The position numbers were made by a program, and so were the translations under genes. Source: Acytostelium subglobosum LB1 (taxonomy: Eukaryota > Evosea > Eumycetozoa > Acytosteliales > Acytosteliaceae). Taken from it: 64,000 nt of DNA. Below are positions 2,414 to 64,000 of the stretch, one piece after another. The stretch spans positions 310,001 to 374,000 of the forward strand of contig NW_012236511.1 in NCBI RefSeq assembly GCF_000787575.1. Direction: 5' to 3'. How positions within the stretch are numbered: position 1 is the first letter of the stretch; every line of letters starts with the position of its first letter. A model generated the notes under the pieces. It ran no database searches. It was not told the DNA's origin and worked only from the letters and a program-made list of their open reading frames with translations.

Positions 2414-5400
2414 TCAAACAACAGGTAATGTTTGAACAAACTCATGCTCAATGTCTGATGAGTAGATCATCATTGTTGAGGGTTTGTTGAAGGCATCCGT
2501 TGGACACTCTTCCAATCTCATCCTTCTGATGTTACTCTGTACATAGTAGGATGTATCCATCATTGGTGTTGATAACCATAACACTCTCTTCAACAACATC
2601 AGCACCAACACCAACAGGTTGTTTATACATGAATGCTTGGAGCTGTGAATGAAGGTTAGTAAATACGTTTGAATGATTGATTGATTGATTGATTGTTAAC
2701 ATAAACATACCTTATATGATGGAAGATGTTTAGAACATTCAAAGTGATCATTGAGCTCGATGATGAGGTTGTCATTCCAAGACCAATAGATCATGTCTGT
2801 GTTGTCGACTACGAAGTACTTGGAAGCTTGGAGGATGGTGTCTTTACCTATGCCAAAGCACTGACAAGAGGTGGCACTTGCACATTTTGCGAGGTCATGT
2901 GTAATGCTGAACGTGGCACCATCGTTAAGTCTACGTAGGTGCATGATGCCTCCAAAGGTCCTCGAGTCGTGCTTGCTCATTGGACACTTAGCCGTATCGA
3001 TAACCCAATTAAAGTCTTTGGGTGAGCCATTGATTTGGCGCAGGATGTTGGCCAATGCATTGCCTGGAGCCTTGGTATGATTGCCGAGTGAAGGTATACA
3101 CTTCTGGAGCTGATTCATCAAGTGGTCCACTTCAACGGCCTGTTCGCCTTCAAGCGAGCAGTCATACTCAAAGATGTCCAGCCATGGACTAATGCTCGGA
3201 TGAGTGGTGTAGGTCACATCCTTGCTGAATCTCAACCAGTTGATCAGATATGGTGCCAATGGATGACAGGGCGTGTTGATCGGTCTCATGGCATCAGTGA
3301 ATACATCCAGGTTGTCTAGCAAATCCTTCAACGGTCCTGGTTGGCTGGCATGGTGAACAATCTTGCCAAAGAGTTGGCGACGGGCCACCACGAGGTCTGG
3401 ATTAACCTGGGACAAAGTCAATGCAAGTTGATTGATCAGGACATCATTGGAAACACCATTTTGGAGTTGAGCAATAAGGAAACTTGCCTCTCTTGCCAAC
3501 GAATGGATGGTGTCACTGCTGAGGTTTGCCTTGATGAGCTGGAGAGTGTCATTGCCCTCATCTTCCTCCAAGATGAACTGGTACAGGGTAACACACCTAT
3601 TCAAGTATCTGATTGGCACGAGGTCAGATGTGTGCGCCAATGTAGCCAAAGCATCCAAGATCAACTGCTTCCTCTCATTGCAAGAGTTGACACTCAGCTT
3701 GTAGACCTCTGTCGAACCTGATGGTCGATTGACTGTGACCTGGCGACACCAATCTCCTACCTTCCCAGCGACATACTCATTCTTACTGGTGTTGCCAACT
3801 GCTGGGAGTATGTTCAAGATCTCCACTGTGGAGAACAACTCCTTGATGCCGTCCAAGTTGTTCTGCAACAAATTTAGATGATCAATCTGTGGCGCAATGT
3901 TTGTTGGCATCCTCTTAAACATCTTGGAACAGAACTCTTGCGTGGTGGAAGGGATATTCATGCTGCCTGGAGTATGTGCTTCAATGATTGGTTGAATCAT
4001 TGAGTACAACTGTTGAATATCCTCCATCAGAGCGAACATTGTCTTGTCCAAGGAGAGGTGCGACTTTACTTTAGCACTGGTCTTGATAAAGTTGGATGAT
4101 GTCATGAAGCTGGCAAAGAACTGGATCAGGTCATGAGACAGATACTTGAATAGCTCCAAATGGGTGTACAACATTCCACCAACTTCATTCTGGCACTTGG
4201 TATCATGATCCTGCTCTCCATTGAAGTTCTTGATACACTGGACAATCCTATCATTGGCTTCATCAACATCAGTGATCATTAGCAGTGGGAACGACTTGAT
4301 AAAGTTGGTCAACATAGAGTGATTGTTGTGGTATCCATTGATGGAGATGACATTCTTGATGAACTTCATAATGAAGCGAGTGTCTTGATCAAACTGGCCG
4401 TCGGGTCTTAGGTATTTGAATCTAAATAGAGAGATAACTAGGTGTAAATAAATGATGGCCAGGAGTGATCAATTGTTGGGATGGATATAACTTACATGAA
4501 CACAAGGTCATCAGTGGTGCTATCTGGAATCTCGGACAATTCTTTATATAGTATTGGACTGACTTTGGTGGTCAACTTGGTGTTGATAATGTCCTCCATC
4601 ACTTGAATGGTCTGACTGCATACCATATCCATGTCCAACATGCCATCATATTGTTTGATCATATAACAAAAGATGATTGAGAAGACATTATTGGTCCTTG
4701 GTAGGGCCAAACCAAAGTGGGTAAGGAATTTCTGAGAGATATCATTGATCAAAGTGAATGAATCTTGATGTGATAATGCGTGTAACCTTGAATCCATCTC
4801 TTTGATTGTCATTGATTTCGGCTCTTCCCCATACTTGGAAATGTTGATGTGAATTGACAATGATTGGAATATCTCAGACATGGCCTCCAAAGTCAAATTA
4901 ATCTTTGTATATTACACCAACTTGTTACTGTGATCTTGAACAAACTATTAACACTTGACATGATTGAATATGTATCTCCAAATCCTTCAATACTCTGTTG
5001 AAAGAAAGCAATGCTTCCCTTTGGTCGGGCAGGCCAGTGTATGATTGGATGAATTTATCGACGTATGAATGGATTACATCCAAGATCTAAAGTAGAATAA
5101 TAATAATTAATTATTGATTGTAATAGATATGTATCTTTGATATAAGTACTTACTCGCGTCCTGCTCTAGCGGAGCTCCTGTAACTCCTCATTCCAGTGGG
5201 GCACTCCTTGATCTCTTGGCAATCGGACTGAAAGAATGGCTGAGATTTGGCAAAGGTTCAGTCCCTTCTTACTATCCTCTAGTATACTTGGTACAGTCTT
5301 TCTAACAAACAGAATGTTGAGCAAGGTTGGTTGGTTAAATCCTTTATGGTCTGGAACCAGGGCCACCATCTTATAAGAGAGAATTGAACATATTTGGTAG

Positions 5401-38808: not shown

Positions 38809-41205
38809 ATGATCAAAGTATGTATATCCTGGAACTATTCCAGCCTCAGCCCTAGCCCTCGCCCCCGCTCACACTCCCGTACTCAAACATACTTTAGCAC
38901 CACATTTACACAGCTTTGCTTGTCACTCTTGCAATGATCTGCATGACCAGGTCAGTGATGGGAGGCATGCTTGTGCAAAGCTATGATGGACCTGTCAGCA
39001 GCGCAGAGTTAACATCATTCTTGAATTACTTGCCATCGTTGGTGCCAGACCCCGACAACATTGACAATGGCTGGGCCCAACATGACAGTGGCGAAGCGAT
39101 GAAGGCCATGGGCCTCGTCTACGAGATCTCCCAGAACGTCGGCATCCTGGCCCAGATGGTCAGGTTCTGCGACGCCCTGCTCTCCCAGCGCAATGACCTG
39201 GCGCCCGCCCCCGTCGGCCAGAACGTCTGCTGGACCAACCGCATCGACCCCATCTGGCCCAACGTGCCTGCCAACGAAACTCGCGCCGACGGCACTGGTG
39301 GCGAGCAAGGTGATCCGGTCGGACACTTGGCATACACTGCGCGTCTGATCCTCCAGTCGCCCGCCATCTGGAGCACAGTCGTCTCCATTGGCGACCCCCG
39401 CGGCTACGGCGCAACCTACCTGCAGCGCGCCAAGACATACATCCAAGGTGCGGAAGTTGCCGTCTTTGGCCACATCCTGCGCTCCCAACTCGACATGTCG
39501 CGTAACAATCAAATGTGGTTCAGCGCCCCCAACCCATACAAGGGAGGCACGCCAGTGCCCTGGAACCAAGTGATGATGTTCACCTACGCCTTCCAGAACT
39601 TGGCCACTGCCCACGATATCCTGGGCGTGAACCAGACTCGCGCCAACTACTACCGCAACATCGTCCAAGTCAACATGGACTGGTTCTTCTCCACTGGTGT
39701 CAAGCGCATCACTGACGCCAAGGGCAACCCCGCATACACCTGGGGCTACTCACTCCCCAGCACTGATGGCGAGGACGTCAACCACGGCAACTTGGACTTT
39801 GCAGGACTGTACCGCGCTTACCTCACGGGCGAGTACACTGGCATCACTCCCGCCTCGCTCACCCCCATCGCCAACACATACGTGGACATTGTCATGCGTG
39901 GTCCAGGCGACTACGCCGGCAAGTTCAACGGACAGGATGGCAGCGGCAACGCATCGCCAACCAACTATGTTCGCTCGCCATACTTCTCGCTGGCCGAGTT
40001 TAGACCCGACGCCTACTCACAAATGATGGCCGACGGTCGCATCAAGTTGGGCAGCACCAGCAACACCCGGATGGACGTTGTTGGCCGCCTGTTCTTCTGC
40101 AGGAACAGGAGATACCAGAGCTACACCGTGTCAGCCGTGGCTGTTAGTGGCCAGACCAACACCTACAATGTGGGTGTGAGTGCCAAGGGTGCCTGGGCCT
40201 CGCAGGTCACTTTCAACCTCACCGGCCTGCCCGCTGGCGTCTCGCCATCATGGTCCAACGGCAACAAGGTCACTGGCAGCGGCTCGACGGTCCTCACACT
40301 CACCGCCTCGGGCTCGACCCCATCTGGTACATACTCAGTCACAGTCCGCGGCTGGGCTTGGGGCCAGGTCGTCCAGGTCGCCACAATCTCACTCGTTGTC
40401 CAGAAGCAGGTGGCCATGCCAACACTCAGCCTGGCCAGCGGCACATACATCGCCGCTCAATCAGTATCAATCAGCACATCAGAGAGTGGAGCGACCATTC
40501 GCTACACCCTCGATGGAACCACACCGTCCGCCACCAATGGCGTGACCTACAGCGCAGCGTTTAGCGTCGCCACCACCGCCACACTCAAGGCAATTGTTAC
40601 CAAGTCTGGCGCCAACAGTGCCGTCGCCACTGCCACCTACACAATCAAAAAGATGGTCTCGACTGACGTTGGCACTGTCGCACTTGCCGGCTCGACCAGC
40701 CTCACCGGCGCTGGTATCACAGTCACAGTGGCTGCCAGTGGTGCCGACATCTACACTGCCGCCGACCAGTTCCGCTACAGCTACGTGTCTGCCTCATCCA
40801 GTGGAAGCGAGTCGATCTCAGCTCGCGTCGTCTCTCAGACCAACACCAACGTTTGGGCCCAAGGCCGGAGTCATGTTCCGTGAGAACACTGCCGCTGGCG
40901 CCGTCAACATTGGCGTGTACATCACACCTGGCAAGGGCGCCAGTCTCCAATACAGGAATGGCACCAACATCCTGGCCTCGAACGGTCCCAACACAGTCGG
41001 CCCAGTTGCCCCATACTACGTTCGTCTGGACAAGTCACAATCCCAGTACACTGGCTACATCTCTGACGATGGCATTACCTGGACCATCATCGGTGGACCC
41101 TACACCCTGGGCACATCCGCATCATCCATCACCAAAGGTCTTGCTGTCAGCAGTCACAACAATGCAGCCCTCTGCACTGCCGTGTTTGACAATATCATAG
41201 TCTAA
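38809..41205 (+). CDS. Secreted multidomain protein with chitobiase-C-like and ConA-like domains (one frame break)
   Basis: A secreted protein of about 771 residues in a small exon (38809-38817) plus a long one (38898-41205). The join supplies a signal peptide (MIKHHIYTALLVTLAMI...). Residues about 30-400 form a helical domain, Trp/Asn-rich, with NGWAQHDSGEAMKAMG and WGYSLPSTDGEDVNHGN; I do not recognise it, but it resembles alpha/alpha-barrel polysaccharide-active enzymes. An Ig/Fn3-like module follows (about 405-520), then a chitobiase/hexosaminidase C-terminal-type module (ATIRYTLDGTTPSATNG), then a concanavalin-like module (VMFRENTAAGAVNIGVYI). At 40858-40860 one extra C breaks the frame; removing it restores WAKAG and reading to a stop at 41203. 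Domain types are common in bacteria and the exon is unusually GC-rich, so ancient transfer is possible. A role in polysaccharide binding or breakdown is likely. Confidence 0.75.
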
Positions 41206-48297: not shown

Positions 48298-49550
48298 ATG
48301 TCAAGCGGTGGCGGCGGAATATTCATCGATCCTGCATTTGATATATCTCATATCATACTGTCATCATTCTATTTGGCATTGATGATATCAGCAGTGGCCG
48401 CATCAATATATTGTAAAGGACTACGTATGTATGAGTATTGATGGATGATTGATGTTGGATGGATAGACTTGCTAACATATATAATTTGAACAGATTCATT
48501 CGCAAGCCTTGTATTCTATATACTTTTGATTGTAGGATGTGCATTGAGGGCAGCATTGTTTATCATATACATATTGGTAGTTGAACAGTTGGCCACACTG
48601 GAAGACCCAACTGCTGACCTCCTAGGTACACTACCATCATTCTTCTTCTTTACAGTATACTCTGTAGCATTAATATTAGGGTAAGTCACATCAATCAATC
48701 AATCAATATATGATCAATCAAAGTGGACTAATCAATCAATCAATCAAACATGTATAATATATTATATAGCACAAAGGTAGTGGACGACCATCTACCAAGC
48801 ACAGCCAAGTTCAATATTAAGTTGATTATGCGAGTTATTATTATTGGCAATTTTATAATGTACTTCATGGCGACAGTATTATATATTCTGGATTATGTAT
48901 TTCCACATCCATCTGGTACAGGATCACTGAATACTCCAATGACTCTTATTGGTCAGATCATTCAAATGCTTGTAGCTGTAATCTACGTCATTGGTTCCGT
49001 ATACTTTGTATATACACTGTATGTTATATATATAACAACATTATTGATTGATTGATCAATTTGATCACATGACACACTCACTTACTCACTCATTCATTCA
49101 ATCAATCACTGGATTGAATCATTCCAATCAATCAATCAACTCAATTCATCACTGGATGGTACCATTCCAATCAAATTCATTCATTCACTCAATTCAAGAT
49201 CCATTCATTACCTGAGAAATTGGAAAGAGTTTAGAGCTGCCACACGTAATAATGATACAGAGTTGGAGGTGATTAGGAAGATGTTCTTGGCAGTGTTTGG
49301 ATATTCGTCACTGAGCTTTATAGTTCGTGCAGTGATGACGGCCGTCACAACATTTGTTTCCATCACAAGTTGGAGCAAAGACATATTCTACTACACGGTG
49401 CTCGAGGTGCTGCCCATGATGCTGCTGCTCATCATCATGACACGACGAACATCACTCATCCTATTGTATCAACAGATGCTGTCACTCAACCTCTTCAGTT
49501 GTCTGACGCGCAAAAAGACCGAGAAGACTCCACTAATCACCAAGCCATAA
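48298..49550 (+). CDS. Seven-pass membrane protein, THH1/TOM1/TOM3-like
   Basis: A polytopic membrane protein of 304 residues. Exons are 48298-48424, 48494-48680, 48770-49018 and 49199-49550; all joins keep phase. Seven hydrophobic spans are visible, with LGTLPSFFFFTVYSVALI and a later LRNWKEFRAATRNN loop. The spacing of spans, the PSFFFFT motif before the fourth and the RKMFLAVFGYSSLSF span recall the THH1/TOM1/TOM3 family, GPCR-like proteins found in plants and amoebae that in plants sit on the vacuolar membrane. A generic GPCR-like protein is the alternative. The C-terminal tail is short, with several Lys (TRKKTEKTPLITKP). Intron 49019-49198 is unusually long, made up of TCAA/CATT repeats. 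Confidence 0.6.
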
Positions 49551-49594: not shown

Positions 49595-50983
49595 TTACTT
49601 CTTCTTGATGACCAGGACTACTACCAGTGTGACTATGATTGCGCAGCCAACGATGGATCCAATAACTATACCGGCAATGGCACCGCCACTTAGACGTCCA
49701 CTTTTGCAGACGTCAGAGTTGTCACCATTGATTGAACATGTGCGCTCGTCACAGTTTATCAAGCTGGCGCCATTGTTCACAACATTGTTCATTGTGATCG
49801 ATCCGACTGTGCACTGAATCAAATGATTTGATCCGTTGGCGTGGATGTTCTGGTCAATTACGACGTTGTGCAGGGCAACTTGTGAGCCATCCATGTCAAT
49901 GGCCACAGAGTTCACCAGCGTGTTGTGGGACATTGTGCTGTTGGACACCACAACGTTGCTGAGCTGGCCAGACACCAGACCACCCTTGACTACCAGATTG
50001 TTGGTGATGGTCGTGCGCTGAATGGTCATGTTGACGCCACGTCCAATCAGGTAGGCCGTGTTGATGTTGCCGTCCAGCACAGTGTCGGTCACGAGCAGTG
50101 GACTTCTATTCTTGATCAAACTTTGATAGCTGGTGAGGTTGGTACTAGAGCTGGCAGTGTTCTGATTGATGGTGCAGTTGGCAATGATTGATGGATAGGC
50201 CTTCTCGTCGCCAAGGTCAATGAGGTTGTCGACAAACTTATTGAGATGGATTGAGGCGCCAGTCATTAAGAAGTTTGATTGGGTTGAGTTGATCAAAGTT
50301 TGAATGGAGTTGTTGGATATCATCACATTGATCAATGACAGGTCGACTCCGTTGGAACTGATCAGACATGTGATATTACCAACAAAGTTGGAGATTGATC
50401 CTCCATTCATCCTGAAAGATGGGCGCACTGATCCAATTGTACCATTCAAATCTATTGGTATGTTGGCGACACTTGACTGGCTGCTGGACATTATAACATT
50501 GTTGAGAACAATTGATCCAGATTGATTCTTGGACATGATCCTTGCATCAATCAACTTTATATTATTGATTGTCAAGTTGGTGATACAAGTTGAAATAGAT
50601 GTACTTGGAATCATGATGAATGTGTCAGGTGAATGACTAAAGTCAAGGGTGGTCAACTTGTCAAGTTGGGATGACCCATTAATAGTGATGTTGTAGCATG
50701 ATGGGTTGATGTTTGTGTTGCCTGGCGTTGGTTTGTAGATACCAAGATTGAGTATGATATTAATTTCTGAGTTGATGGGATTGGGTATCAGATTGTTGTA
50801 AGATGTGATTGAGGCTGATATTGATGGACAAGCATTTTGTGTTGATGAGTCCAGTCCACATTTTGTTAAAGTATTCGTCGATAATGGATCAACATAAAGT
50901 GTTGTAATTGTTATAGATTGTCCATTATTAACGTTAATAATTATAAGACTTATTATAAATATAAATATTATTTTTCTAAACAT
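49595..50983 (-). CDS. Beta-helix-like membrane glycoprotein, family member 1
   Basis: A predicted type I surface protein of 462 residues, single exon. An N-terminal signal peptide (IIFIFIISLIIINVNNG) precedes the family motif TTLYVDPLSTN and a CGL...C pair. The main body carries short repeated strands with many Asn (LTINNIKLIDA, SGSIVLNNVIMSS, NVVVSNSTMSHNT), as expected for a right-handed parallel beta-helix, and at least a dozen N-x-S/T sequons. Near the end a Cys-rich unit (CDERTCSINGDNSDVC) leads to the SGGAIAGIVIGSIVGC membrane span and a short basic tail (VIKKK). No catalytic residues of pectin lyases are identifiable, so a binding or recognition role is more likely than enzyme activity. 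It shares this layout with the genes at 55820, 57797, 60076 and 62902, from which it differs by orientation. Confidence 0.8.
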   Translation of the reverse strand: MFRKIIFIFIISLIIINVNNGQSITITTLYVDPLSTNTLTKCGLDSSTQNACPSISASITSYNNLIPNPINSEINIILNLGIYKPTPGNTNINPSCYNITINGSSQLDKLTTLDFSHSPDTFIMIPSTSISTCITNLTINNIKLIDARIMSKNQSGSIVLNNVIMSSSQSSVANIPIDLNGTIGSVRPSFRMNGGSISNFVGNITCLISSNGVDLSLINVMISNNSIQTLINSTQSNFLMTGASIHLNKFVDNLIDLGDEKAYPSIIANCTINQNTASSSTNLTSYQSLIKNRSPLLVTDTVLDGNINTAYLIGRGVNMTIQRTTITNNLVVKGGLVSGQLSNVVVSNSTMSHNTLVNSVAIDMDGSQVALHNVVIDQNIHANGSNHLIQCTVGSITMNNVVNNGASLINCDERTCSINGDNSDVCKSGRLSGGAIAGIVIGSIVGCAIIVTLVVVLVIKKK

Positions 50984-51681
50984 TATTGAAATTATTATTT
51001 TATATATAACCTGTATTTCTTTGATTGATTTATTGATTGAATGAGATTGAATGAATGAGTAGTATTGAGATAAAATTGAACAGTATTACTGTCATTTTAA
51101 TCATCGGGGAGAGTCGTGTCCCGATGATGTATTCAGGGAAAATGACACACTTTCAATCAATTTAACCGACCCGTCAATCATTCGTTTTTAGATAGTAAAT
51201 TTCCAAAATGGGACGTCCAATTTTCATTGATTCACAGTCTTAAAAGACACCTATTTTCATTGATTATATACCCTTCCAATTGTCTCTACTAATACCCAGT
51301 TACTCAACAACACCCTATATGATTGATTAGCTCACATTGTCCCGTCTTTTAATCAATATGAGCCAGATCGTTACACACTCACATTTCTTGAGACTTATAC
51401 TATTACACTAACTCTCCCGACATATACTGTCTTTGACTTCTGGCCTTTCCCTTCCCAATTACTAATATGAAATGATCCTTGCCCTACCCTAACCCTTGCC
51501 CTTGCCCTTACCCTTGGAAGACACACCAATGCATCATGTTTTTTTTTCAAGACGAACTTCTCAAGAATGATTGAAGTTGAAGATGAACATGTGGGTGTGA
51601 GTTCAAGTGATTCGTTCAATCACTCTTCATTCTCATTCATTCTCAAAGAGTTTAACATCAATATATATTTATATAAGTAGA
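50984..51681. other. Divergent spacer with a large hairpin
   Basis: Between the first beta-helix gene and NOMO. It contains an AT-rich start region, the two-part inverted repeat at 51091-51146, telomere-like CCCTAA/CCCTTG repeats near 51482-51512 and a T-run at 51540-51547. Confidence 0.5.
51091..51146. other. Two-tier inverted repeat (hairpin)
   Basis: Outer arms GTCATTTT (51091-51098) and AAAATGAC (51139-51146) enclose inner arms ATCATCGGG (51100-51108) and CCCGATGAT (51120-51128), with an 11-base loop. One side has a 10-base unpaired bulge between tiers. It lies in the spacer between divergent genes, so it could be a folded RNA or a transposon footprint. Confidence 0.6.
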
Positions 51682-54600
51682 ATGAGATCATCAATATTGA
51701 TGATGTCCACCATCGTCATGACGATGGTGTTTATTGTTGCGTTGGCACAGGTCACAATGGCACAGGTCGACGATGAGGTATTACTGTGTGGTGGCTTCAT
51801 TAAGCGTGCTGCCAACCTGCCACAGCGTCAAAAGATAACCGAGAAGATAGAGATATTGTTGACCAAAGATGGTCGCATCAAGGAGCGCGCAGACATATCA
51901 CCAAACTACGACTACGTCGTGCCCGTCTACGAGCGCGGCAACTACATCCTCGAGATCGAAGGACCCGAAGGATGGACATTCGGTATGTTTGTTAATGGAC
52001 ATAATTCAATGAATGAATGAATGAGTGACTGACACAACAACACAATCGAATAGCATCAAAGCAGATACCACTCAATAAGGATGGTTGCAAGGATAATGAG
52101 GAGTATAACTTTGAGTTGAGAGGATTCAGAGTGAGCGGAAAGGTGTCGAGCAAGGGTTGCCAATCGAACAAGGCACTCGAGGGCATTAAGGTGCAGCTGC
52201 GAAGACGTGGATCGCACGAGGTGATCGCCGAGACATTGACCACCAGTGACGGACAGTACCGCTTCGAGAACATCGCCCCGTCCAGCGAGCTCGAGGTCGT
52301 CGCCCAGCACGCACACTGGTCGTTTGCCAACAGCCCACTGGCCATCAACGGCTTTGACTGGGGCAACTTCCAGATCGCGCAGGACCTGGCCATCGTCGGT
52401 TTCCCCGTGTCGGGCAGCATCGTCTACGATAAGGAGCCCATGCAAAACGTGGACTTCCAGCTCAAGAGCGCATCGGGCGCTGTCAAGTCGATTGTTGGCT
52501 GCACCACCTCTGACAAGGACTCCATCTGCACCGTGCAGTCGGGCGCAGACGGACGCTTCCTGTTCAAGAACGTGCCCTGTGGCGCGTACTCCATCGTGCC
52601 ATCGCACAAGGGTCAGACCAAGTACGACGTTGCCCCTGTGCACCAGGAGATCAAGGTTGATGCCGGTGGTCTGGACATTGTCGATGGCTTCAAAATCGTT
52701 GGTTTCTCTGTCTCTGGACGTGTTCTCAATCATGACGGTGGTCTGGCTGGCGTGTCCATCCTTGTAAACGGCAAGCAAAGAACTACAACAGATAATGGAG
52801 GGTAAGTCATCCATTCACTTTCTCGCTCAATCACTCAATCAATCACTAACGTCACTTGTCACTCAGACACTACACTTTGGACAAGATCACGACTGGAACA
52901 TACAAGATCGAGGCACAGAAGGAGCATTACATCTTTAGCTCCCTCCAGCACAAGATGACGCCAGTGACCCCAACACTGCCAGATATCAAGGTGACCAGCT
53001 ATCACCTGTGCGGTCAAGTCTCTGTCCCAACACCACCCGCTGGTGTCATTGTCAACCCAAGGGAGATCACCCTTACCAACAGCGAGAACAAGCAAGAGAA
53101 GAAGTATGTGATGTCCCGTCCACATGTATCGATCAAACATATGACTAACACATCCTCAACTACACAACAGGCACACAGACAACAATGGCAAGTTCTGCTT
53201 TGAGGTTACGACTGGCACTTACAAGGTGTCGATCTCGTTGAGCACACAGGAGCGCGCCAAGGGATTGCAATTTGCCTCGCAGATCATTACGACCTCGATC
53301 ACAAACAGCCCTCACCTGGACATCATTTTCTCTCAGTCTCGCGGTTCAATCGCAGGCAAGATCAGAGCGATGAAGCAGATCACATCGGAGGTTCCTGCCG
53401 GTCTCACCGTCACCTGCCAGCCTACATCGCGCAGCGGTGACTCTATGCAAGCCTCGCTCTCACTCACCAAGTCTGGCGACGTCTCCTTCACCTTCCGCGA
53501 CCTCCTCCCCGGTTCCTACAAGATCTCTCTCCACTACGCCCAGTGGTGCTGGTCATCAGCCGAGAAGACCATCGATCTGTTGGTATGTTGGAACAGTCCC
53601 TGACGCCCTGGCCACACTCAATCACTAACTAACTCGCTCACTCAATCTTACAGAACACTGAGGATAAGAATGACATCGAGTTCACACAGACTGGCTACAC
53701 TTATGAGATCACCTCGCCACACGATCAGGTGTCGCTGATTCATGAGATTGGAGAGAGCACCAAGAACATTCAGTTGCGCAAGGGTTTGAATGAGTTGTGT
53801 CTGGCAGAGGCTGGCGTGCATAAGTTCACCGTCAAGTCATGCTTCCAATTCGAGAAGGACACCTACACCTACAACACCAACCAGGCATCCAGCAACAAGC
53901 TGGCTCTGAAGATCCAGAAGATTCAGTTGGCTGGCTCGATCAAGGTTGCCCAGTCAGCGGCCGTCGACGCCATCCAGCACATCGACGTCAAGGTTATGTC
54001 CAGATCATCTGAGCAACCACTGGTCGTTGTCAAGGCTGTGGCCTCAGAGGCTTCGCCCGCCGTCTTCACCTACAGCTACATGGCATCGCTCGGCGACGAG
54101 TTGGAGTTTGTGCCCAGCGTGCCCAAGTCTGTGAATCTGCTGTTCTACCCCGCCAGCCGTCTGGCATCCGTCAACACCGAGAGCTGCCCACCATCGCTCG
54201 AGCTGATCGACGCGCGTCCCGGTCTCATGATCAACGGCAAGGTGAACAACAACATCGCTGGCGTCGCCATCAAGACTTACAACGAGCGCACTGGCGACCA
54301 GTTTGGCAGCGAGGCACTGACCGACGCACAAGGTCTCTACACCGTGGGCCCACTGCGTGACGACGTCGAGTACACGCACAAGGCATCCAAGGCCGGCTAC
54401 CACTTTAAGAAGGAGTCCAACAGCAACAACTTCAACGCCATCGAGCTCGGCTCGGTCGTCTTCAACTTTGTCGATTCAGAGTCACGACAGCCCGTGCAAG
54501 GCGTGCTGCTGTCGCTGAGTGGTGAGGGCTACCGCACCAACCTTCAGTCGGCCGCCAACGGCTCCATCACAGTGTCGCAGCTCTTCCCCGGCACCTACTT

Positions 54601-55553
54601 TATCAAGTCGCTGCTCAAGGAGTACACCATCACCCCAGCCTCGCACACAATCGAGTTGATTGAGGGTCGCGAGACCAAGCTCGAGCTTGTTGCCAAGCGT
54701 GTGGCATTCAGTGTCTTTGGCAGCGTGCGATCATTGAACAACGAGCCCCAGAACGGCCTCATCGTGCAGGCAATCACCGCCGCCGGCAAGGTTGCCGAGG
54801 AGTCCAACACGGACGAGTCTGGCAACTATAGAGTGCGTGGTCTGTCCCCAGCCGAGACCTACCGCATCACTGTCGTCAGCCAGGCGTCCGCCGAGAGGTC
54901 GACTCCCGCCGAGCACAGCATCGTCATTGGCAAGGCAGACGTCAAGAATGTAGACTTTACCATCATCAGCTCGCAATCAAACACGTTCGACCTGACTGGC
55001 AATGTGCGTCTGAGTGGCGAGGTTGCTCAGCAGAAGCATCTCACGATGTTGCGTGCCAACCTATACAACAAGCGCGACAACTCATTGTACCGCTCGATCG
55101 ATCTTGGCTTCAACTCGTTCTTTGACTTTGGAGCGTTGCCCAAGTCAAACGAGTACGTCCTCAAGGTTGAGCAGGCCACCGGTCAGCGCAACCAGGGCTC
55201 ATCCTATGTGTTCACTGTTGAGCCAATCCAGGTTCGCGTCGTCCAACCAGAGGACAAGCAACAACAACAACTATCAACATCATACATTCAACGTGGCCGT
55301 GAGCAAGTCATCGATCATTCATGATCAGGAGTCTGTTCCTTACACTGGTCTGATCTTCTTTGCCCTGGTCGTTGTGAGCGTGTTGTATCCTGCCAAGGTG
55401 TGGAGCTTCATTCTCTCGGTCAAGAGTGGACAGCTGTTCCAGCAAAGCAAGTCATCTTCGTCCTCCAGGTCATCATCCAATAAGAACAACAATCATGAAG
55501 ACGATGACTACATCCCAAAGGAGTTGAAGCAGAAGAAGACAAAGACCAAGTAA
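51682..55553 (+). CDS. nomo: NOMO-like ER membrane protein (Nodal modulator; one frame break)
   Basis: A large ER-lumenal protein of about 1,198 residues, near the 1,222 of human NOMO1. Exons are 51682-51982, 52054-52801, 52867-53103, 53171-53582 and 53654-55553. A signal peptide precedes LLCGGFIKRA, the family start. The body is a chain of Ig-like carboxypeptidase-regulatory beta-sandwiches with recurring VSGxV units (GFRVSGKV, GFPVSGSIV, GFSVSGRVLN) and GTYKIEAQKEHY. A C-terminal membrane span (PYTGLIFFALVVVSVLYPA) and Lys-rich tail close it. NOMO is part of the multipass translocon with TMEM147 and nicalin. Around 55258-55275, in a CAA tract, the frame shifts by one base before the span. 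Skipping one base gives the expected length, so an assembly error is likely; an intron 55228-55324 is the alternative. Confidence 0.88.
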
Positions 55554-55819
55554 AGTAAACTCTCATGATTGATAACCACACGACCTTTCATTCATCTTAA
55601 GATCAAGATACTTTTTTGAAGGTTGCCAAATTGATCAAAACAAATATCTGGCGAATGGTAGTTCAATCGCCTGGACCAGTAGGGCACATGATTAGTGGAA
55701 AGGGTTTGGTGGAGGACCTGGGTTTGATCGCTTTGATCCTTAAGCTCAAGCAACATAAAATCAGTCATTTCAATAAATCAATCATTCATTCCTAACTTAC
55801 TATCTCTAATCTTATAATA
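55554..55819. other. Spacer between NOMO and the beta-helix array
   Basis: Mostly unremarkable. Around 55655-55735 there are fragments resembling D-arm and T-arm sequences of a tRNA, but no acceptor stem closes, so no tRNA is called. Confidence 0.4.
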
Positions 55820-57355
55820 ATGATGAAGGGCAATATCACTTTTATTTCAATCACTTTGATATTGATGACATTTGTTATCAATTGTCGTCCAATCAATGCC
55901 AACTCAATCACAACACTTTATGTCGACCCATCATCATCAAACAATTCATCATTCTGTGGACTTGACCCTGCCAACAATGTGTCCTGTCCAAACATATCAG
56001 CAGCACTCACAACATATCAACAACTCAATCTAACATCGTATAATGACTTGTTCATCATCCTCGCACCAGGTATTTACCTTCCACTTCAACAACAAGTAAA
56101 CAACACAATGGTATTTGGTAATGGAAATATCAATCCATATGGAATCAACATTACACTTGGTCCATCACCTGACTCTCAGGGCCAGGTCATCTTTGACTTT
56201 TCATCTTATACCATTCCAAATTGGGGTCAACTTCAATTTATATATCTGAAACCAACCAATTACAATGACGATGTACTGCATACTAGAATAACATTGAACA
56301 ACATGACATTGATTAATGCCCCGATACATTCCATATCTCAATATGTCAACGTAGTGCTGAACAACATAAACATCACATCAGTTTTCGTTCGTCAACTGAC
56401 ACCAATCTCAGTCCTACCGTATTCATACACTCCAGAGTCATCATTGACAATCAACGGAGGCAGTATGTACAATATCCAAGGCTCAAACGGAATTCCAATG
56501 ATCATGTCGTTGCCATGTGATCTTGTGATCAATGGAATGACATTCACCAACAACACTGGAGATTCAATCATCCATGCGCGCAACTCAACAATGATCTTGA
56601 CCAACTTGTCGTTCAGCGGCAACACCATCTACAACTATATAGTTGGAACAACAGTTCCTCGACCATCATCATCAATCTCCAACTGCTCATTCACCAACAA
56701 TAATATGACTGGAGGTACATTTGTCTCATTTGCCGGTTTGATCAGTCTGAAGCAAGCTCAAGACCATAACAGTGTAGTGCCAATCTCCGACACTCTTTTT
56801 GACAGCAACTATGGCGTGTACAACTTGGTGGCCATGACCTTTGGAGAATATGTTATGGACAATGTAACAATCACCAACAACACGGCGATAGTAGGTGATA
56901 TGATCAGTGGAGCAGTGGTCACATTCAGCATGAACAACTGCACAATGAACAACAATCACTTGTTCAATAATAGTAATCCAATGGGTTATTATAATTCAGG
57001 CATCACGCTCACTGATGTTGTACTTGGACCATTCTCAAGAAACTATTCAATTCCATCGGAAGGCTTGTATAACATTGAATGTCATTTTGGAAATATAACA
57101 TTTGTAAATGTTAGCAATTATAACAATGGATCTAATCTTATGGATTGTAGTAATCAATTACAACGATGTGAGATCATTGGAGAAGAATCACAATTATGTC
57201 CAAATCCACCAAATCATCATAGTGGACAACTAAGTGGTGGAGCTGTCGCTGGAATAATCATTGGAAGTATTGGAGGAGTCTTACTCCTACTTATCATTGC
57301 CTATCTTGTCAACAGAATGTTGAGGAGCAGGTCGCGCTATCATCCAATACAATAA
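55820..57355 (+). CDS. Beta-helix-like membrane glycoprotein, family member 2
   Basis: A single-exon surface protein of 511 residues and the longest member. It begins with tandem ATGs, a signal peptide, then TTLYVDPSSSNNSSFCGLDP. The body repeats Asn-rich beta strands such as LTLINAPI-like and VVLNNINITS, with SSLTINGGSMYN marking the family's central motif (also in members at 49595 and 62902). More than twenty N-x-S/T sites are visible. The Cys pair near the end (CEIIGEESQLC) is followed by GQLSGGAVAGIIIGSIGGVLLLL, a membrane span, and a basic tail (RMLRSRSRYHPIQ). No enzymatic motif is seen. The AT-rich promoter and lack of introns match the other members. Best explanation is a cell-surface recognition or adhesion protein, inferred from architecture only. 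Confidence 0.8.
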   Translation: MMKGNITFISITLILMTFVINCRPINANSITTLYVDPSSSNNSSFCGLDPANNVSCPNISAALTTYQQLNLTSYNDLFIILAPGIYLPLQQQVNNTMVFGNGNINPYGINITLGPSPDSQGQVIFDFSSYTIPNWGQLQFIYLKPTNYNDDVLHTRITLNNMTLINAPIHSISQYVNVVLNNINITSVFVRQLTPISVLPYSYTPESSLTINGGSMYNIQGSNGIPMIMSLPCDLVINGMTFTNNTGDSIIHARNSTMILTNLSFSGNTIYNYIVGTTVPRPSSSISNCSFTNNNMTGGTFVSFAGLISLKQAQDHNSVVPISDTLFDSNYGVYNLVAMTFGEYVMDNVTITNNTAIVGDMISGAVVTFSMNNCTMNNNHLFNNSNPMGYYNSGITLTDVVLGPFSRNYSIPSEGLYNIECHFGNITFVNVSNYNNGSNLMDCSNQLQRCEIIGEESQLCPNPPNHHSGQLSGGAVAGIIIGSIGGVLLLLIIAYLVNRMLRSRSRYHPIQ

Positions 57356-57796
57356 ATACCAGTAGTCGGACTTCAGTCTCACGAATGTTGATCAAATTGA
57401 TGACAGTGTATCTCTGATCACCATAATAACTTATTATTTCACTGCATTTAATAATTCAAATCTATTCAATAAAGATTACTAGTTATCTGATTGATGCTTA
57501 TTCAATCATTCGAAAAGAATCGGGAGTAGCTTAAATCCAAGCGAGTGATTTGGAACAGAACGAAACAATGTCTCTTCGGAAGTTGAAAAACCAGGTTATC
57601 CTAGGAAAATCTGATCACTTATTGAATCAGGAAAACCCTGGGCCTGTGAGGACTAGCATTGGGCTTGTAGGGCCTCCACAAATCACATTCGGTAATTGAG
57701 GTAACAGACTACATCTTTTGTTTCTTTGTCGTATTCATTCAATCCATCAATCATTCAATCATTCAATCATACAAACAAACAATCGATCATTCAAAT
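57356..57796. other. Spacer within the array
   Basis: AATAAA at about 57468 ends member 2; CATT and TCAA repeats precede member 3. No other element seen. Confidence 0.5.
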
Positions 57797-59120
57797 ATGA
57801 AGTTATATTTATCAATATCTTTCTTTGTAATAATCATACTTGTACTAGGATGTTGTGTTGAGGGCCGGACAACAATCACTACAACAACACTTTATGTCGA
57901 TCAAGCATCAACCAACTCATCAATAGTATGTGGATTGAGTTTAGATTATAATATGGCCTGTACCAACGTCACAATGGCACTTAGAAGTTATAGATCGCTT
58001 GTTGGCTCACATCCTGTAAGCTCGGAATTGAACTTGTTGGTGGTGCCAGGTGTCCATACTCCCGATGCCCACAAGGATCAATTAGGATTCAGTCCAATAT
58101 GTCTCAATGTCACCATTGGACCAACAGTCATCAGTGATACCGACCCACTAGTGTTCGACTACAGCTCAAACTCCAATCAGTACNTTCATGCTCATGGCGC
58201 CCACTCATTTGGACAAATGTCAAACTACTATTACATTCAACAGTATGACCATGATCAATGCTCAAGTACTCTCAATCAACAACAAGGTCACAATGGTTCT
58301 GAATGATGTGATCATGACTTGCGCCTACCTTCCCAACATGCCACCTCTGCTCGAGATGAGGCCAAACGAGATGGAAGCCGATCAATATGGTGCTCGCACT
58401 CTGATCATCAATGGTGGAGCAGTTGTTAACTGTACTCTACGTGATACTTACTTGATCATTGTGGATGGTGCCAACTTGGTGATTGACAACTTCCAGGTCT
58501 CAAACAACAATGCTAACAATATGCTCCAGATCCTTAAGTCCGTGACGACCATCACAAACACATTGTTCCATAACAACTGGGTCGACTACATCATGTTCGT
58601 TCTTGACAACACTCTGGAGACCGTGTTTAGCAACTGCACATTCAGCCAGAACCATATGTCCACAGTTACAGGGCTCACCATGATCCAACATGCGATTGGA
58701 CCATTGACCATTACCGACTCGGTGTTTGAAGGTAACTACAACTTGACCATTTTGATCGATGTGTCGGATGGGGAGGTCAGCATTCAAGATACAACATTCA
58801 TCAACAACAATGTGATAGGTGGTCCTCTGTTGCAAGTGTCGTCAAGCACATTCAACATGACCAACGTCACTTTGACATCGGACCAATATGAACAGGTACA
58901 ATATATAGTAGAGTTTCAGTCGACCAAGGTCAGTCTGACCAATGTAGTCTTTGACGACCAGCCATATGTAGTTAAAGACGTGATAGCATGTTACGAAGGA
59001 GACATCACATTCAACAATGTCACCAACAATGTTGGTGGCTCAGGATTGATCGATTGTAAATATCCAGGTCTATGCACAATCCAAGGTGATCAACCTAACA
59101 TCTGTCCCCAACAACATTGA
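57797..59120 (+). CDS. Beta-helix-like secreted glycoprotein, member 3, without membrane anchor (contains one N)
   Basis: About 440 residues once the single N at 58184 is disregarded; the N adds one base and breaks an otherwise continuous frame (YFMLMAPTHL). The layout follows the family: signal peptide (LSISFFVIIILVLGCCVEG), TTLYVDQASTNSS, CGL...C pair, VVPGVHTP, strands such as TMVLNDVIM, TLIINGGAVVN, and the spacer unit LTITDSVFEGNYNLT. It differs at the C terminus: after the final Cys unit (CTIQGDQPNIC) it ends with PQQH and a stop, exactly where relatives enter the membrane span. It may therefore be secreted or the gene may be truncated. No span-coding sequence is found just downstream. 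The gene and the broken copy at 61740-62385 are each other's closest relatives here. Confidence 0.75.
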
Positions 59121-60075
59121 ATAATGATAAATAAATAATACAAGTATTCCATTCATTCATTAACAACAACTTACATTTCTTGGAAGGCTGTCTGTTCTGT
59201 GTGTGAGTTGGTATTCACTTCCCTTCAGCTTTGACAATACATTCATTCATTCATTTACATTCAAACATACAACATGTAATCTTTATCTATGTAGGTGTAA
59301 TAGGATCTTGAGGTAAGCTTACCTAGAAGTCAACAACATAGTCAACGTTGAGCAAGTGTTTGACTGGTTACATTGGCTCCAATGATTCCGGAATCATGGT
59401 TACATTGACTTACTGACCGTTCGTTTCATTCGTTCTTTCAATCGATCGATGGACAACTCATCGAGTTAGTGGTCTTGGGACCCAAGACAAGTCAAAGCAT
59501 ACCCAGTGTAACATCGACTCTTCATATAGACAACACTTCTTACCAGAGTTCATTCAATGACTACTCGACCCTGGTCTAATTAAACGAACCGACTAAGGAC
59601 CTAACCAACTTGTCTGTTCATCCATTCAACCATCCATCCAGGGAAACAAACACATGCATGGCTGTCAGATAGTGTCTCTTGCATCTGTGTCTCTTAAATT
59701 GAAGAAACGACCCAGGATTCAAAAAAACATCACTTCACACACCCACCTCAGCATCAAAATGAGCAACAATCCTGGTCTGTGCTAAATCCAAAAGACATGG
59801 AATACTCGGGTATGAAACTCTTAAGTTCATTGGGTTGTCAATATGTCGGTGTTAGTCAACGGACTATTCATTGTTTACCACCCCATTACAATGGATTCAT
59901 TATAAATAGATTCCAAATGATCTTCAAACCATCCATCATTTCATGTTCAATCAATCATTCAATCAATCAATCAGTCATACAATCAATCCAATATTCCCAT
60001 TATTCAATCAATCAATCAATCCATCCATATAATCAATCAGTCAATCTATTAATCCAAACAAAAAAAATATTAATT
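59121..60075. other. Spacer within the array
   Basis: CATT and TCAA repeats, scattered GATC-palindromes near 59440-59460, and a repeat-rich leader before member 4. A 99-codon in-frame extension ahead of the next ATG (59779-60075) is repeat-derived and not supported as coding. Confidence 0.45.
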
Positions 60076-61518
60076 ATGAATTTATTTTTAATTATTTTCC
60101 AAATCATTCTAATTTTGAAAGTTGGTTCCATCAGTGGACAGGTGGCAATGACAAAGGTCACACTTTATGTTGATCCTGCATCAAACAACACTTCTCCAAC
60201 ATGTGGTTCCCAATTAATTGGTAACTACCCCTGCCATAGCATTGGAGCAGCATTCGCCAGTTACCAACACTTGTTTGCCGTTACCACCGACTCTGAACTC
60301 AGCATCAAGATTGTGCCCAACACCTACTTCCCCTCTGACCGTGACTTTGGATTCAACCCAATATGCCAAAATGTGACCATTGGTTCAATCTACGATGGCC
60401 AAGAAGTTGTGTACAACAACACTGTGAGTGGAGAACCATACTTCCTCTACCTTCATACTCAGAATGACATTGAGGTGAACTGCACCACATCTCTCACAAT
60501 CAACTATATCAAGTTCATCGATGTGAAGAGTGTTTGTGGAATCAACAACGTCACGTTTACTCTCAATGGTTGTTCGTTCATCGGTGGAAGTGCGGCCAAC
60601 CCTTTGATATACCATCAACTCTCAGTGTATGATACAACTGGTGTTGTTGGATCAACAGTGTTCAAGATGTCAGGTTGCAGCATCTCCGGATCAGAGGCAA
60701 TGTTATACACGCCCAATGTGTTTGTCAGCAATGTCGAAATGATCGTGGACAACTCTTCATTCTACAACAACACGGGTTCCAATATCTTCTACCTCGAGAA
60801 CAGCACTCTGGCATTGAGCAACTCGATCTTCTACTCCAACTTCATGAGGTTCAACTTGATCCAGTTCAATGAGCCCAGGTTCCCCGTCCAATCAGTGTTC
60901 ACCAACGTCACTTTCAATGAGAACAGAGGCAACAGCACCGAGTTGATCCTTCAGCGTGTTGGAGTTTTGACCATCAAGAACTCAGTGTTCACTGGCAACT
61001 GGTTCTTAACCAGCTTGATCGTGGCCATGACCAACCTGACCGTCGAACATACAACATTCGCCAACAACAGCTTCGCGGCCAATAGCTCGATGATTCTTGG
61101 ATTGAACGCCAAATCTCTCACTATGATCGACAACACTTTCACTGGCAACCACTTTGGTCCACAGTCCGGCTTTGTAGGCGCAGTCAACACACCAGTCAAC
61201 CTCACCAACATTGAGTTTGGCGCTAATGACTTCCCCTGGGGTCTCACCCAAACCTGCCAAGTCATCAAATGCTCCAACAGTGGCGTCACCTTCAACAATG
61301 TGATCAATGACAACGATGATATCAAGTGGATCTCGTGTCACAGGTGCTTGACCTATGGTGATTATCCAGGAATGTGTCCACCCGATCATCATCTCAGTAT
61401 AGGAGCAATCGTAGGTATTGCCGTTGGTGGCTTTGCCGGTGTATGCATCATTGTAGTGTTGACTGTTGTGCTTGTCAAGAGATCAAAGAGGACCCAGTAC
61501 AATACCATCCAACACTAA
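60076..61518 (+). CDS. Beta-helix-like membrane glycoprotein, family member 4
   Basis: A single-exon surface protein of 480 residues. The ATG at 60076 begins the signal peptide (LFLIIFQIILILKVGSISG), after which come TLYVDPASNNTSPTCG and the second cysteine (PCHSIG). The body has the family's repeated strands, e.g. FTLNGCSFIGG, FKMSGCSISG, LTIKNSVFTGN and NLTVEHTTFANN, with extra Cys compared with members 1 and 2. The C-terminal Cys unit (CHRCLTYGDYPGMC) is followed by IGAIVGIAVGGFAGVCIIVVLTVVL, a membrane span, and a basic tail (KRSKRTQYNTIQH). Numerous N-glycosylation sites are present. No catalytic motif is recognised. Expression and ligand are unknown; the anchor and glycosylation point to the cell surface. 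Confidence 0.8.
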   Translation: MNLFLIIFQIILILKVGSISGQVAMTKVTLYVDPASNNTSPTCGSQLIGNYPCHSIGAAFASYQHLFAVTTDSELSIKIVPNTYFPSDRDFGFNPICQNVTIGSIYDGQEVVYNNTVSGEPYFLYLHTQNDIEVNCTTSLTINYIKFIDVKSVCGINNVTFTLNGCSFIGGSAANPLIYHQLSVYDTTGVVGSTVFKMSGCSISGSEAMLYTPNVFVSNVEMIVDNSSFYNNTGSNIFYLENSTLALSNSIFYSNFMRFNLIQFNEPRFPVQSVFTNVTFNENRGNSTELILQRVGVLTIKNSVFTGNWFLTSLIVAMTNLTVEHTTFANNSFAANSSMILGLNAKSLTMIDNTFTGNHFGPQSGFVGAVNTPVNLTNIEFGANDFPWGLTQTCQVIKCSNSGVTFNNVINDNDDIKWISCHRCLTYGDYPGMCPPDHHLSIGAIVGIAVGGFAGVCIIVVLTVVLVKRSKRTQYNTIQH

Positions 61519-61739
61519 AATGAACGATCACTAACTACTGATGATCGATCAAACACACAAACCAATAAATCATTCAACTAAACTCTCTCATTGTGCCAAA
61601 CACATGACCATGGTATGATCATGATGTTCACAATCACCATTCAAAGCTTCAAGCTTTAGGTACTCTTAAGTATAATATCGCTGCGATCACTATTACCTAA
61701 TCAGGAAGACCCATAATGTGCTTTGGCTTTGGCTTCCTG

Positions 61740-62385
61740 CATCAACTATTCCCTCAACTCCTATCAACTCCGAATTGAACATATTGATGGTGCCAGGTGT
61801 CCATATACCAGTGACAAACGACAATAATCTTGGAATCTCAATCTAACCATTGGACCAACAACAACTAGTAATCGATTACAGTATACTGATCAATACTTCA
61901 TATGGATTGTACCTGATACCCCAGTGATCGGGCAGAACATCAATCACACTCAATAGTATGACATTGATCAATGCAGTCGTGAGCTCAACAATGTAACGAT
62001 GGTATTGAACAACGTCACCATCACCGACTCTTTGTTTGAGGGCAACTACAACTTGACCTTACTGATCCAAGATACAAGCATACCATCAACATATGTATGG
62101 ACCTGTGTTACAGGGCTGGAATGGCACATACAACATGACCAACGTAATAATGATGTCCAACAATTTGGACAAGTATTCTTGTGTTTGTCGATTCCAAGAC
62201 CAGTCTTTGATGATGATCAATCAAGTGTGACCGACATCATTGCTTGTTTACAAGATGTCACCACACTAAACAATGTAACAAACAATGTCAATGGTGCAGG
62301 TATGATCGATTGTGATATTCAAGGTCTATGCATTATTGAAGATGATCAACCAAATAACTGTCCACTCGATCGAAGATTATTGTAA
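61740..62385 (+). pseudogene. Broken copy of a member-3-like beta-helix gene
   Basis: Sequence between about 61760 and 62385 matches member 3 in order but not in one frame. It starts without a signal peptide, at a region matching SELNxLxVPGVH, then contains several stop codons (for example near 61832, 61924 and 61996) and frame changes. Recognisable pieces include a SMTLINAVVSS stretch, the repeat-like TDSLFEGNYNLT at about 62019-62055 and, in the last part, TDIIACLQDV, NNVTNNVNGAGMIDCD and CIIEDDQPNNC. It ends with PLDRRLL and a stop at the same point where member 3 stops, ahead of the missing membrane span. The copy looks dead, with a large central deletion. Confidence 0.75.
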
Positions 62386-62901
62386 TTATCTGTTATGTAG
62401 TGTCATTCAAATAAGCATCCGATATCGTAATGGTAGGGTACTGAGAAATATCACAAGTGAGTAGAGTGGACCTCGCAAAAATGATCAGATGGCGAATCTT
62501 TGGTATTTGGATCAATTCCAAGGAGGCACTACTTTTTTTTTGATGAACCCCCAAATCATGATCTTTTTACTTTCGAAGTCAATCTTTGACATTCTTGCGA
62601 GCTTGCTCCAACTATGCGGGTTGTTCTTTAGTATCTTTGACTGGGATACTTTGCATGATTGACCTGATGACATCATGGATACTTGAACGAAAGATGACGA
62701 CTTTAATAATCGATTTTATTTCCTCGTCTTTTTATATCTTTCGAGCTATATCTGTAACTTATCCCATTAATCAAAGTCAAAGACTCGTCCTAGGATTAGT
62801 CCAATCATCTTGAGAGACTGGTCAATAAATACTACAAACAGATCATCCTCATTCATTCATCCATTCATTCAATCAAACAAACATATATAAAACAAATAAT
62901 A
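62386..62901. other. Spacer within the array
   Basis: Flank of the broken copy and promoter of member 5, with a T-run at 62532-62541 and CATT/TCAA repeats just before the start codon. A 75-codon open frame (62586-62813) has no family resemblance and is not supported. Confidence 0.45.
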
Positions 62902-64000
62902 ATGAAATTAATAATTATTACAATTATTTTATTAATAGTACAGATATTTGGACTATCAGTAAATGGCCAGACAATTACAACTACCACATTATATGTTGAT
63001 CCAGCTTCAAATAATTCGTCACCTAATTGTGGATTGACTAGTGATAACGATGCTGTTTGTCGCACACTATCTCAAACATTGAAAAGTTATTACAATATTG
63101 TTGGTTCCAAACCAGTCAACTCTCAATTGAACATTGTTATGGCAGCTGGCCTCTACCTCCCTGAACAAGTGCCCAACTTTGGAAATGGACAGCTCAACCC
63201 ATTCGGTCTCAACGTGACCTTTGGACCATCGCCACTAAACAACATTGGTGGTGTTATAATCGACTTTACATCATACATCTCACCAGATACCTTGCCACTA
63301 CCCTTCATCAATCTGATTGGATATGGACCATCGACCACCAACATCACCATCAACAATGTCACATTGATCAACGCCGTCATCACATCAGTATACTGTGATG
63401 ATGTCTCAATGATACTCAACAATGTATCAATCTCTGGTTCCGGATCAGAGGATCTCAAACCAATCATGTTTGCTCCAGCCGTGTACACGCCCTCATCGGT
63501 ATTGACCATCAATGGAGGTAGCATGGCCCATGTCATTGCTTATNGGATCAAATCCAATCCTCGATGCTTCAAGATGTGATCTCACCATCAATGGTGTAGA
63601 GTTCTACAACAACACTGGATTCACAATGATCAGCGCCTTCAACGCAACTGTCAAGATCGAGAACTCATATATCCACTCCAACACGTTCACCAACTTGCTC
63701 ATCGGCTTCATCTTCACCTTGCCAGGCTCATCCATCACCAACACCACCATTGTCAACAACGACATGTCATCTCTCGCAGTCCAGATGGGATCCATCATTG
63801 AGGTATACCAGGGATCTTCATCATTGATCAACTCTACACTCTCTGGCAACCATGGATTGTTCAGCCTGTTCCACATGCGCTTGGCCGATGTGTCCATTCA
63901 GGAGACCAAGATCACCAACAACAGTGCCACAGTCAGCTCATTGATATATGGTTCCGAGTCATCATTGGAGATGATCAACACCACCTTCACATCAGATCAT
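62902..64000 (+). CDS. Beta-helix-like glycoprotein, family member 5 (partial at right edge, contains one N)
   Basis: At least 365 residues are present; the 3' end lies beyond the window. A signal peptide (IIITIILLIVQIFGLSVNG) is followed by TTLYVDPASNNSSPNCGL and a second Cys. The body includes the same landmarks as member 2, such as FGNGQLNPFGLNVTFGPSP and SVLTINGGSMAH, so members 2 and 5 are close relatives. The single N at 63544 adds one base; ignoring it, the frame passes on through GSNPILDASRCDLTINGVEF to the window edge. Many N-x-S/T sites are visible (NITINNVT and NTTIVNN). Whether this member has the C-terminal membrane span cannot be judged from the window. Confidence 0.78.

Follow-up and report, generated by a model that had tools for sequence, protein, structure and literature searches.

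The DNA analysed here is a stretch of 64,000 nucleotides from Acytostelium subglobosum (the window), which corresponds to positions 310001-374000 of a contig that we call C35; coordinates without this prefix are window positions. Measured in 2-kb steps, its G+C content lies between 0.36 and 0.52. Between positions 49595 and 64000, the window carries five genes of one family and one decayed copy with common motifs. Gene 1 (49595-50983, minus strand, 462 amino acids) codes for a hydrophobic, signal-like N-terminal stretch, an N-terminal cap with the motif TLYVD..CGL..C, a predicted beta-helix, a C-terminal cap formed by a cysteine unit, a transmembrane segment with a glycine zipper (GAIAGIVIGSIVG; 49607-49690, minus strand, limits approximate) and a short basic tail, KKK, which lacks a YxxPhi motif. 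Gene 2 (55820-57355, plus strand, 511 amino acids) has the predicted beta-helix, for which an AlphaFold2 model was made, a transmembrane segment with a glycine at every fourth residue (57233-57310, plus strand, limits approximate) and a C-terminal YHPIQ, recognised as a YxxPhi signal in the analysis of the C-termini (57338-57352, plus strand). The product of gene 3 (57797-59120, plus strand) ends in CPQQH, is devoid of a transmembrane segment and is probably secreted. Gene 4 (60076-61518, plus strand, 480 amino acids) again combines a predicted beta-helix and a transmembrane segment with a tail ending in YNTIQH, identified as a YxxPhi signal in the same analysis (61498-61515, plus strand). It is followed by the decayed copy (about 61741-62385, plus strand), which is interrupted by stops and frame changes, is nearest to gene 3 and lacks a transmembrane segment, and by gene 5 (62902-64000, plus strand, open to C35:374234), which also lacks one. 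Genes 3 and 5 contain one N each, at 58184 and 63544, the only two in the window; since the reading frame lines up on either side of both, they are best read as intact genes carrying an assembly ambiguity.

Genes 2 to 5 and the remnant are arranged in direct tandem, and gene 1 lies inverted on the other side of a NOMO gene, whose identity is backed by Pfam NOMO domains. A six-frame scan of the window found T[ILMV]YV[DN] at exactly five positions, and in every case a pair of cysteines follows. The first-pass annotation had described five genes and one broken copy with shared motifs, four of the genes and the pseudogene in tandem and one gene inverted beyond NOMO; the open reading frames, the motif scan, the Pfam domains and the paralogue matches given below confirm this description, and the differences in length, cysteines and anchoring that it noted are borne out by comparison of the genes.

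The genome searched comprises 30.73 Mb on 56 contigs. Paralogues of gene 2 were found with E-values down to 1e-82, i.e. beyond chance, and six-frame searches with four different copies as query gave at least 29, at least 25, at least 40 and at least 38 matching stretches, respectively. At least 17 copies or fragments, with neighbouring pieces merged by hand, lie within 180 kb of C35 (292 to 472 kb), and a hand tally gave 19 copies or fragments on ten other contigs (C25, C30, C37, C38, C42, C48, C50, C52, C53 and C54). The tandem array continues past the end of the window at 64000 to about C35:382000, and additional copies on C35 are found at 292-294, 407-410, 422-424 and 468-472 kb. Fourteen full-length open frames were aligned, with 25-40% identity to gene 2; one of them (C35:292613-294109) has no in-frame ATG ahead of its signal-like stretch. 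Many copies outside this set are disrupted by stops or frame changes; introns may explain some of these interruptions. Judged from these sequences, this is a large and old family of putative glycoproteins with a predicted extracellular beta-helix. Single-protein scans, which reach close relatives only, retrieved no relative of gene 2 among viral contigs and none of a part of gene 3 among genome contigs. The beta-helix family is not in the table of notable lineage-dependent family expansions of the A. subglobosum genome paper (PMC4334915), none of six search terms occurs in a paper on dictyostelid family expansions (PMC8535579), and searches of open-licence papers turned up none about the family, judged by titles and selected passages.

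The beta-helix fold proposed in the first-pass annotation, together with structure prediction as a way to check it, is supported by AlphaFold2 and Pfam. Using alignments of window proteins only, gene 2 (pLDDT 82.2, pTM 0.79) and the second part of gene 3, after the N (pLDDT 88.1, pTM 0.89), were both modelled as confident beta-rich solenoids. The Pfam family Beta_helix (PF13229) matched the same part of gene 3 with 30.2 bits versus a cut-off of 25.9, and 3 of the 14 full-length copies (best E 1.2e-6) but not the other 11. When the two models were compared with the PDB using Foldseek, most of the best matches were lyases and hydrolases with a beta-helix, tailspikes or the adhesin PfbA, and a few of the matches listed were pentapeptide-repeat solenoids. 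Since all TM-scores were below 0.5 among the 50 best matches listed per model and only 4 and 7 matches, respectively, reached E 0.001, the likeness is one of kind rather than of detail and does not single out one subtype of the fold. A search of a library of viral models matched mostly proteins of the phage tailspike type and some giant-virus proteins, with TM-scores up to 0.54. By sequence, a single protein gave nothing at E 1 in the PDB, and a profile of the 14 copies matched only the transmembrane region of APP, syndecan-2, integrin beta-2 and similar proteins (best E 0.048). Taken together, a right-handed beta-helix or pectin-lyase-like fold is supported by the predicted models.

In the alignment, six cysteines are invariant in all 14 copies, two near the N-terminus (46 and 56) and four ahead of the membrane (421, 443, 450 and 460). 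The invariant asparagines include 181, 245, 268, 294, 330 and 379, and the middle of the alignment is its most variable part. None of the residues D, E, K, R and H is invariant across the 14 full-length copies, although D36 in the YVD motif comes close. This speaks against a common enzyme active site. The copies carry 12-22 N-glycosylation sequons each, in total 225 compared to 158 in shuffles, an excess of only 1.4-fold; the sequon at N110 is present in 14/14, and nine sequon columns shared by at least 7 of the 14 copies hold 83 of the 225.

In order to describe the C-termini, we selected 33 of them by hand and called transmembrane segments by a hydropathy rule. Such a segment was found in 28 of the 33, the other five being those of genes 3 and 5, the remnant in the window and broken copies on C50 and C53. 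In 26 of the 28 anchored C-termini, the 30 residues ahead of the tail contain GxxxGxxxG, compared to a mean of 2.1 and a maximum of 8 in 3000 rounds of shuffling. The segments have three to six glycines, with a median of four. In Dictyostelium, a glycine-rich transmembrane domain is sufficient for surface targeting dependent on Phg1A/TM9, efficient targeting of such domains needs Phg1A/TM9, and five glycines gave dependence while three or four gave partial dependence (PMC4510845). Only 10 of the 28 segments reach the five glycines that gave full Phg1A dependence, which counts against a TM9-assisted export step. The TM9 family (PF02990) is present in this genome.

A YxxPhi motif lies at most two residues from the C-terminus in 20 of the 28 anchored tails, and in all 20 the tyrosine is 7-12 residues from the membrane edge as defined here. 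The spacing of the tail signal to the membrane is said to matter in Lamp1. Shuffled tails had the motif with a mean of 1.1 and a maximum of 5 in 5000 rounds, and it ends 8 of 105 other open reading frames of at least 200 amino acids at the family loci, a background that includes antisense frames and leaves out six late loci. Since the copies are paralogues, the counts for zipper and tail are not independent and show conservation rather than independent events. The signal is present in 13 of 14 anchored C-termini outside C35, where only a truncated fragment on C54 lacks it, and in 7 of 14 on C35. The absence of the signal from eight of the 28 anchored C-termini (the C54 fragment and seven on C35) counts against the cycling receptors proposed below, as does the distribution of the signal on the tree, where it showed no clustering beyond shuffles (145/500 as low). 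Three changes of the tail signal are forced by starred branches and six are placed on the tree, which makes the number of losses uncertain. The tail of the C52 copy ends in SYQTIN; C-terminal YxxPhi signals are known from lysosomal LAMP1 (GYQTI) and LAMP2 (YEQF), and signals of this type are read by AP-1, AP-2, AP-3 and AP-4 (PMC5297682). The AP-mu family (PF00928) is encoded in this genome. The first-pass annotation did not mention what we judge to be the most informative part of these proteins, namely the transmembrane segment with its glycine zipper and the tail with YxxPhi.

Gene 5 is a mosaic, in which a membrane-type body is joined to a C-terminus resembling that of the anchorless gene 3. 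Up to alignment column 393, it shares 134 informative sites with its downstream membrane-type neighbour (C35:374830-376302) and 16 with gene 3; after this column, the numbers are 6 and 20, respectively. Among the 105 triples of seven genes that were tested for recombination, this switch was the strongest (chi2 59.8, 0 of 5000 permutations as high). In four more triples, all involving gene 5, no more than 7 of 5000 permutations scored as high (g374: g365 vs g373; g373: g365 vs g368; g373: g376 vs g368; g374: g376 vs g373), and several others reached 17-40 of 5000, which is partly explained by the 105 tests. At the DNA level, the identity of gene 5 to the neighbour is 0.71 and 0.68 before the switch and 0.53 after it, compared to 0.44 and 0.47 before and 0.66 after it for gene 3. 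With the switch point near 63953, some 400 bases away from the N at 63544, the mosaic is not simply due to this ambiguity. In the tree, the second part of gene 5 is sister to the membrane-type neighbour (100/98); elsewhere its resolution is poor, and 8 of the 23 inner branches are starred. On the terminal branches, the median is 1.11 changes per column, and the third-position identity between gene 5 and the neighbour is 0.54-0.62 in their similar part, so that dS would be near saturation. By eye, no remnant of a transmembrane segment was seen downstream of genes 3 and 5 in three forward frames of the stretches examined. The best reading is that the array in the window is shedding tail or anchor. 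The gain and loss of copies expected in the first-pass annotation thus find support in the genome searches, the tree and the mosaic gene.

These results lead us to propose, with about an even chance of being right, that the proteins are receptors cycling between the cell surface and the endolysosome, perhaps binding food particles or glycans. Each would be a type I glycoprotein with a signal peptide, presumably cleaved, a right-handed beta-helix between two cysteine-rich caps that may contain disulfides, a single transmembrane helix with a glycine zipper, and a short tail. Its beta-helix would offer a long variable face, probably for carbohydrates or other repeated ligands of food bacteria or the surroundings; we infer ligand binding, on food bacteria, from the variability of the capped solenoid, the large number of divergent copies and the dictyostelid way of life, and the proteins may have a role in feeding or defence. 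The glycine-rich transmembrane segment, the tail motif and the presence of TM9 and AP-mu genes suggest that the proteins are exported to the surface, retrieved through their tail and passed on to the endolysosome: the glycine-rich helix would promote pairing into dimers and TM9/Phg1-assisted export, and the C-terminal YxxPhi would be read by the mu subunits of AP complexes, bringing the receptor with its cargo into the endolysosome. Copies of the window array without the tail signal would be expected to remain at the surface, and the two anchorless genes, 3 and 5, to yield secreted, soluble binders. The first-pass annotation had favoured surface recognition, adhesion or prey binding. Its beta-helix, tandem arrangement and copy gain and loss stand, and a capped solenoid that varies in its middle would suit a role in surface recognition, but the zipper and the YxxPhi signal point to cycling instead of an adhesion protein confined to the surface.

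With regard to the tail, YxxI/L also fits ITIM/ITAM-like motifs, and it could thus be a tyrosine-phosphorylation motif for signalling instead of a sorting signal. Tyrosine-kinase-like proteins occur in Dictyostelium (PMC9197732), but all 20 signals lie 7-12 residues from the membrane edge and no more than two residues from the C-terminus, a C-terminal position known for LAMP1 and LAMP2 (PMC5297682), and we regard a phosphorylation motif as improbable. A function as secreted or membrane-bound polysaccharide-degrading enzymes of the pectin-lyase superfamily appears slightly more improbable still: most of the solved structures nearest to the models are polysaccharide lyases and hydrolases, and the predicted fold and conserved asparagines are as in right-handed beta-helix or pectin-lyase-like proteins (PF13229; PfbA, phage tailspikes), but no catalytic Pfam family was matched, and unlike pectin-lyase-like proteins, with their conserved catalytic acid and base residues, the 14 copies have no conserved charged residues and possess cysteine caps, a transmembrane segment and a sorting tail. 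We rejected the enzyme for its lack of invariant catalytic residues in the alignment.

LAMP1 and LAMP2 share with the family a type I layout with one transmembrane segment and a short tail. The tails of the family also end in YxxPhi, as in these lysosomal membrane glycoproteins (PMC5297682), and, together with the density of sequons and their shared columns, N110 above all, this would be compatible with a resident, heavily glycosylated coat that lines and protects the membrane of the lysosome or phagosome and has no specific ligand. Such a coat is unlikely in our view, given more than 30 divergent copies or fragments whose middle part varies, the existence of anchorless copies and the eight anchored C-termini without signal. 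Unlike in LAMP1 and LAMP2, the ectodomain is a predicted beta-helix and the family is large and divergent; the LAMP luminal domain (PF01299) is not among the 20 Pfam families matched by any of the 14 copies, and a search of the whole genome for it gave no match, but neither did the control search. Somewhat less likely than the coat is cell-cell recognition or adhesion during aggregation and development, in the manner of the Tgr allorecognition proteins, with the secreted copies as soluble partners. A divergent tandem array, a mosaic gene and a mixture of anchored and secreted forms are what this would lead one to expect; the IPT/TIG domains of the Tgr proteins, however, had no Pfam match in the window proteins or the 14 copies, nor was any other adhesion domain found by Pfam, and the signal in 13 of 14 anchored tails outside C35 argues for constant retrieval.

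Compared with other membrane proteins of Dictyostelium, the cycling receptors that we favour resemble the Sib adhesion proteins in their type I layout and in a glycine-rich transmembrane segment of the kind served by Phg1/TM9 (PMC4510845, PMC9197732), but unlike these they have no VWA domain by Pfam and no NPxY in the 28 anchored tails. None of the 14 copies matches the CD36-type Pfam family of LmpA/B/C, the scavenger receptors of class B, as judged by Pfam alone. The putative trafficking code of zipper and tail signal is new here for this family. A wider, rather doubtful extension would be a dictyostelid innate repertoire, in which dozens of beta-helix receptors are exported by TM9, bind bacterial glycans and return to the phagolysosome through YxxPhi, and tandem recombination swaps C-terminal modules to give soluble opsonin-like or decoy proteins. 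In D. discoideum, the molecular identity of only a few phagocytic receptors has been established (PMC5758549), and a large family that combines a predicted beta-helix ectodomain, a glycine-rich transmembrane segment and a lysosome-type tail provides a testable set of candidates, for which the anchored and anchorless neighbours of the array are natural comparisons.

The window's only two ambiguous bases, N at 58184 and N at 63544, each fall within a different gene of the predicted beta-helix glycoprotein family. The reading frame is continuous on either side of both, and these positions look like assembly joins. Elsewhere on the same contig, an open frame of the family was located at C35:292613-294109 (3613-5109 of the extracted locus L009, minus strand). 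In this frame, no in-frame ATG was found ahead of the signal-like stretch, and an ATG in a different frame lies immediately upstream.

A small second array was detected on another contig of the genome (C54:1480434-1485965 and 1490297-1490482). It comprises a single intact copy, another that is interrupted by in-frame stops, and several fragments distributed over both strands. We regard this array as a cluster in decay. Further PF13229 beta-helix proteins with stronger matches are encoded in the genome, among others at C52:571804-572559, C53:1195339-1196346 and C54:585455-585967; these proteins were absent from the matches listed for the four family queries.

Also in the window, a 661-aa open frame (38898-40880) carries chitobiase/beta-hexosaminidase C-terminal and Fn3-associated domains (Pfam), and what looks like a gene of several exons encoding a putative protein with multiple membrane helices (48500-49550) adjoins the inverted family copy.
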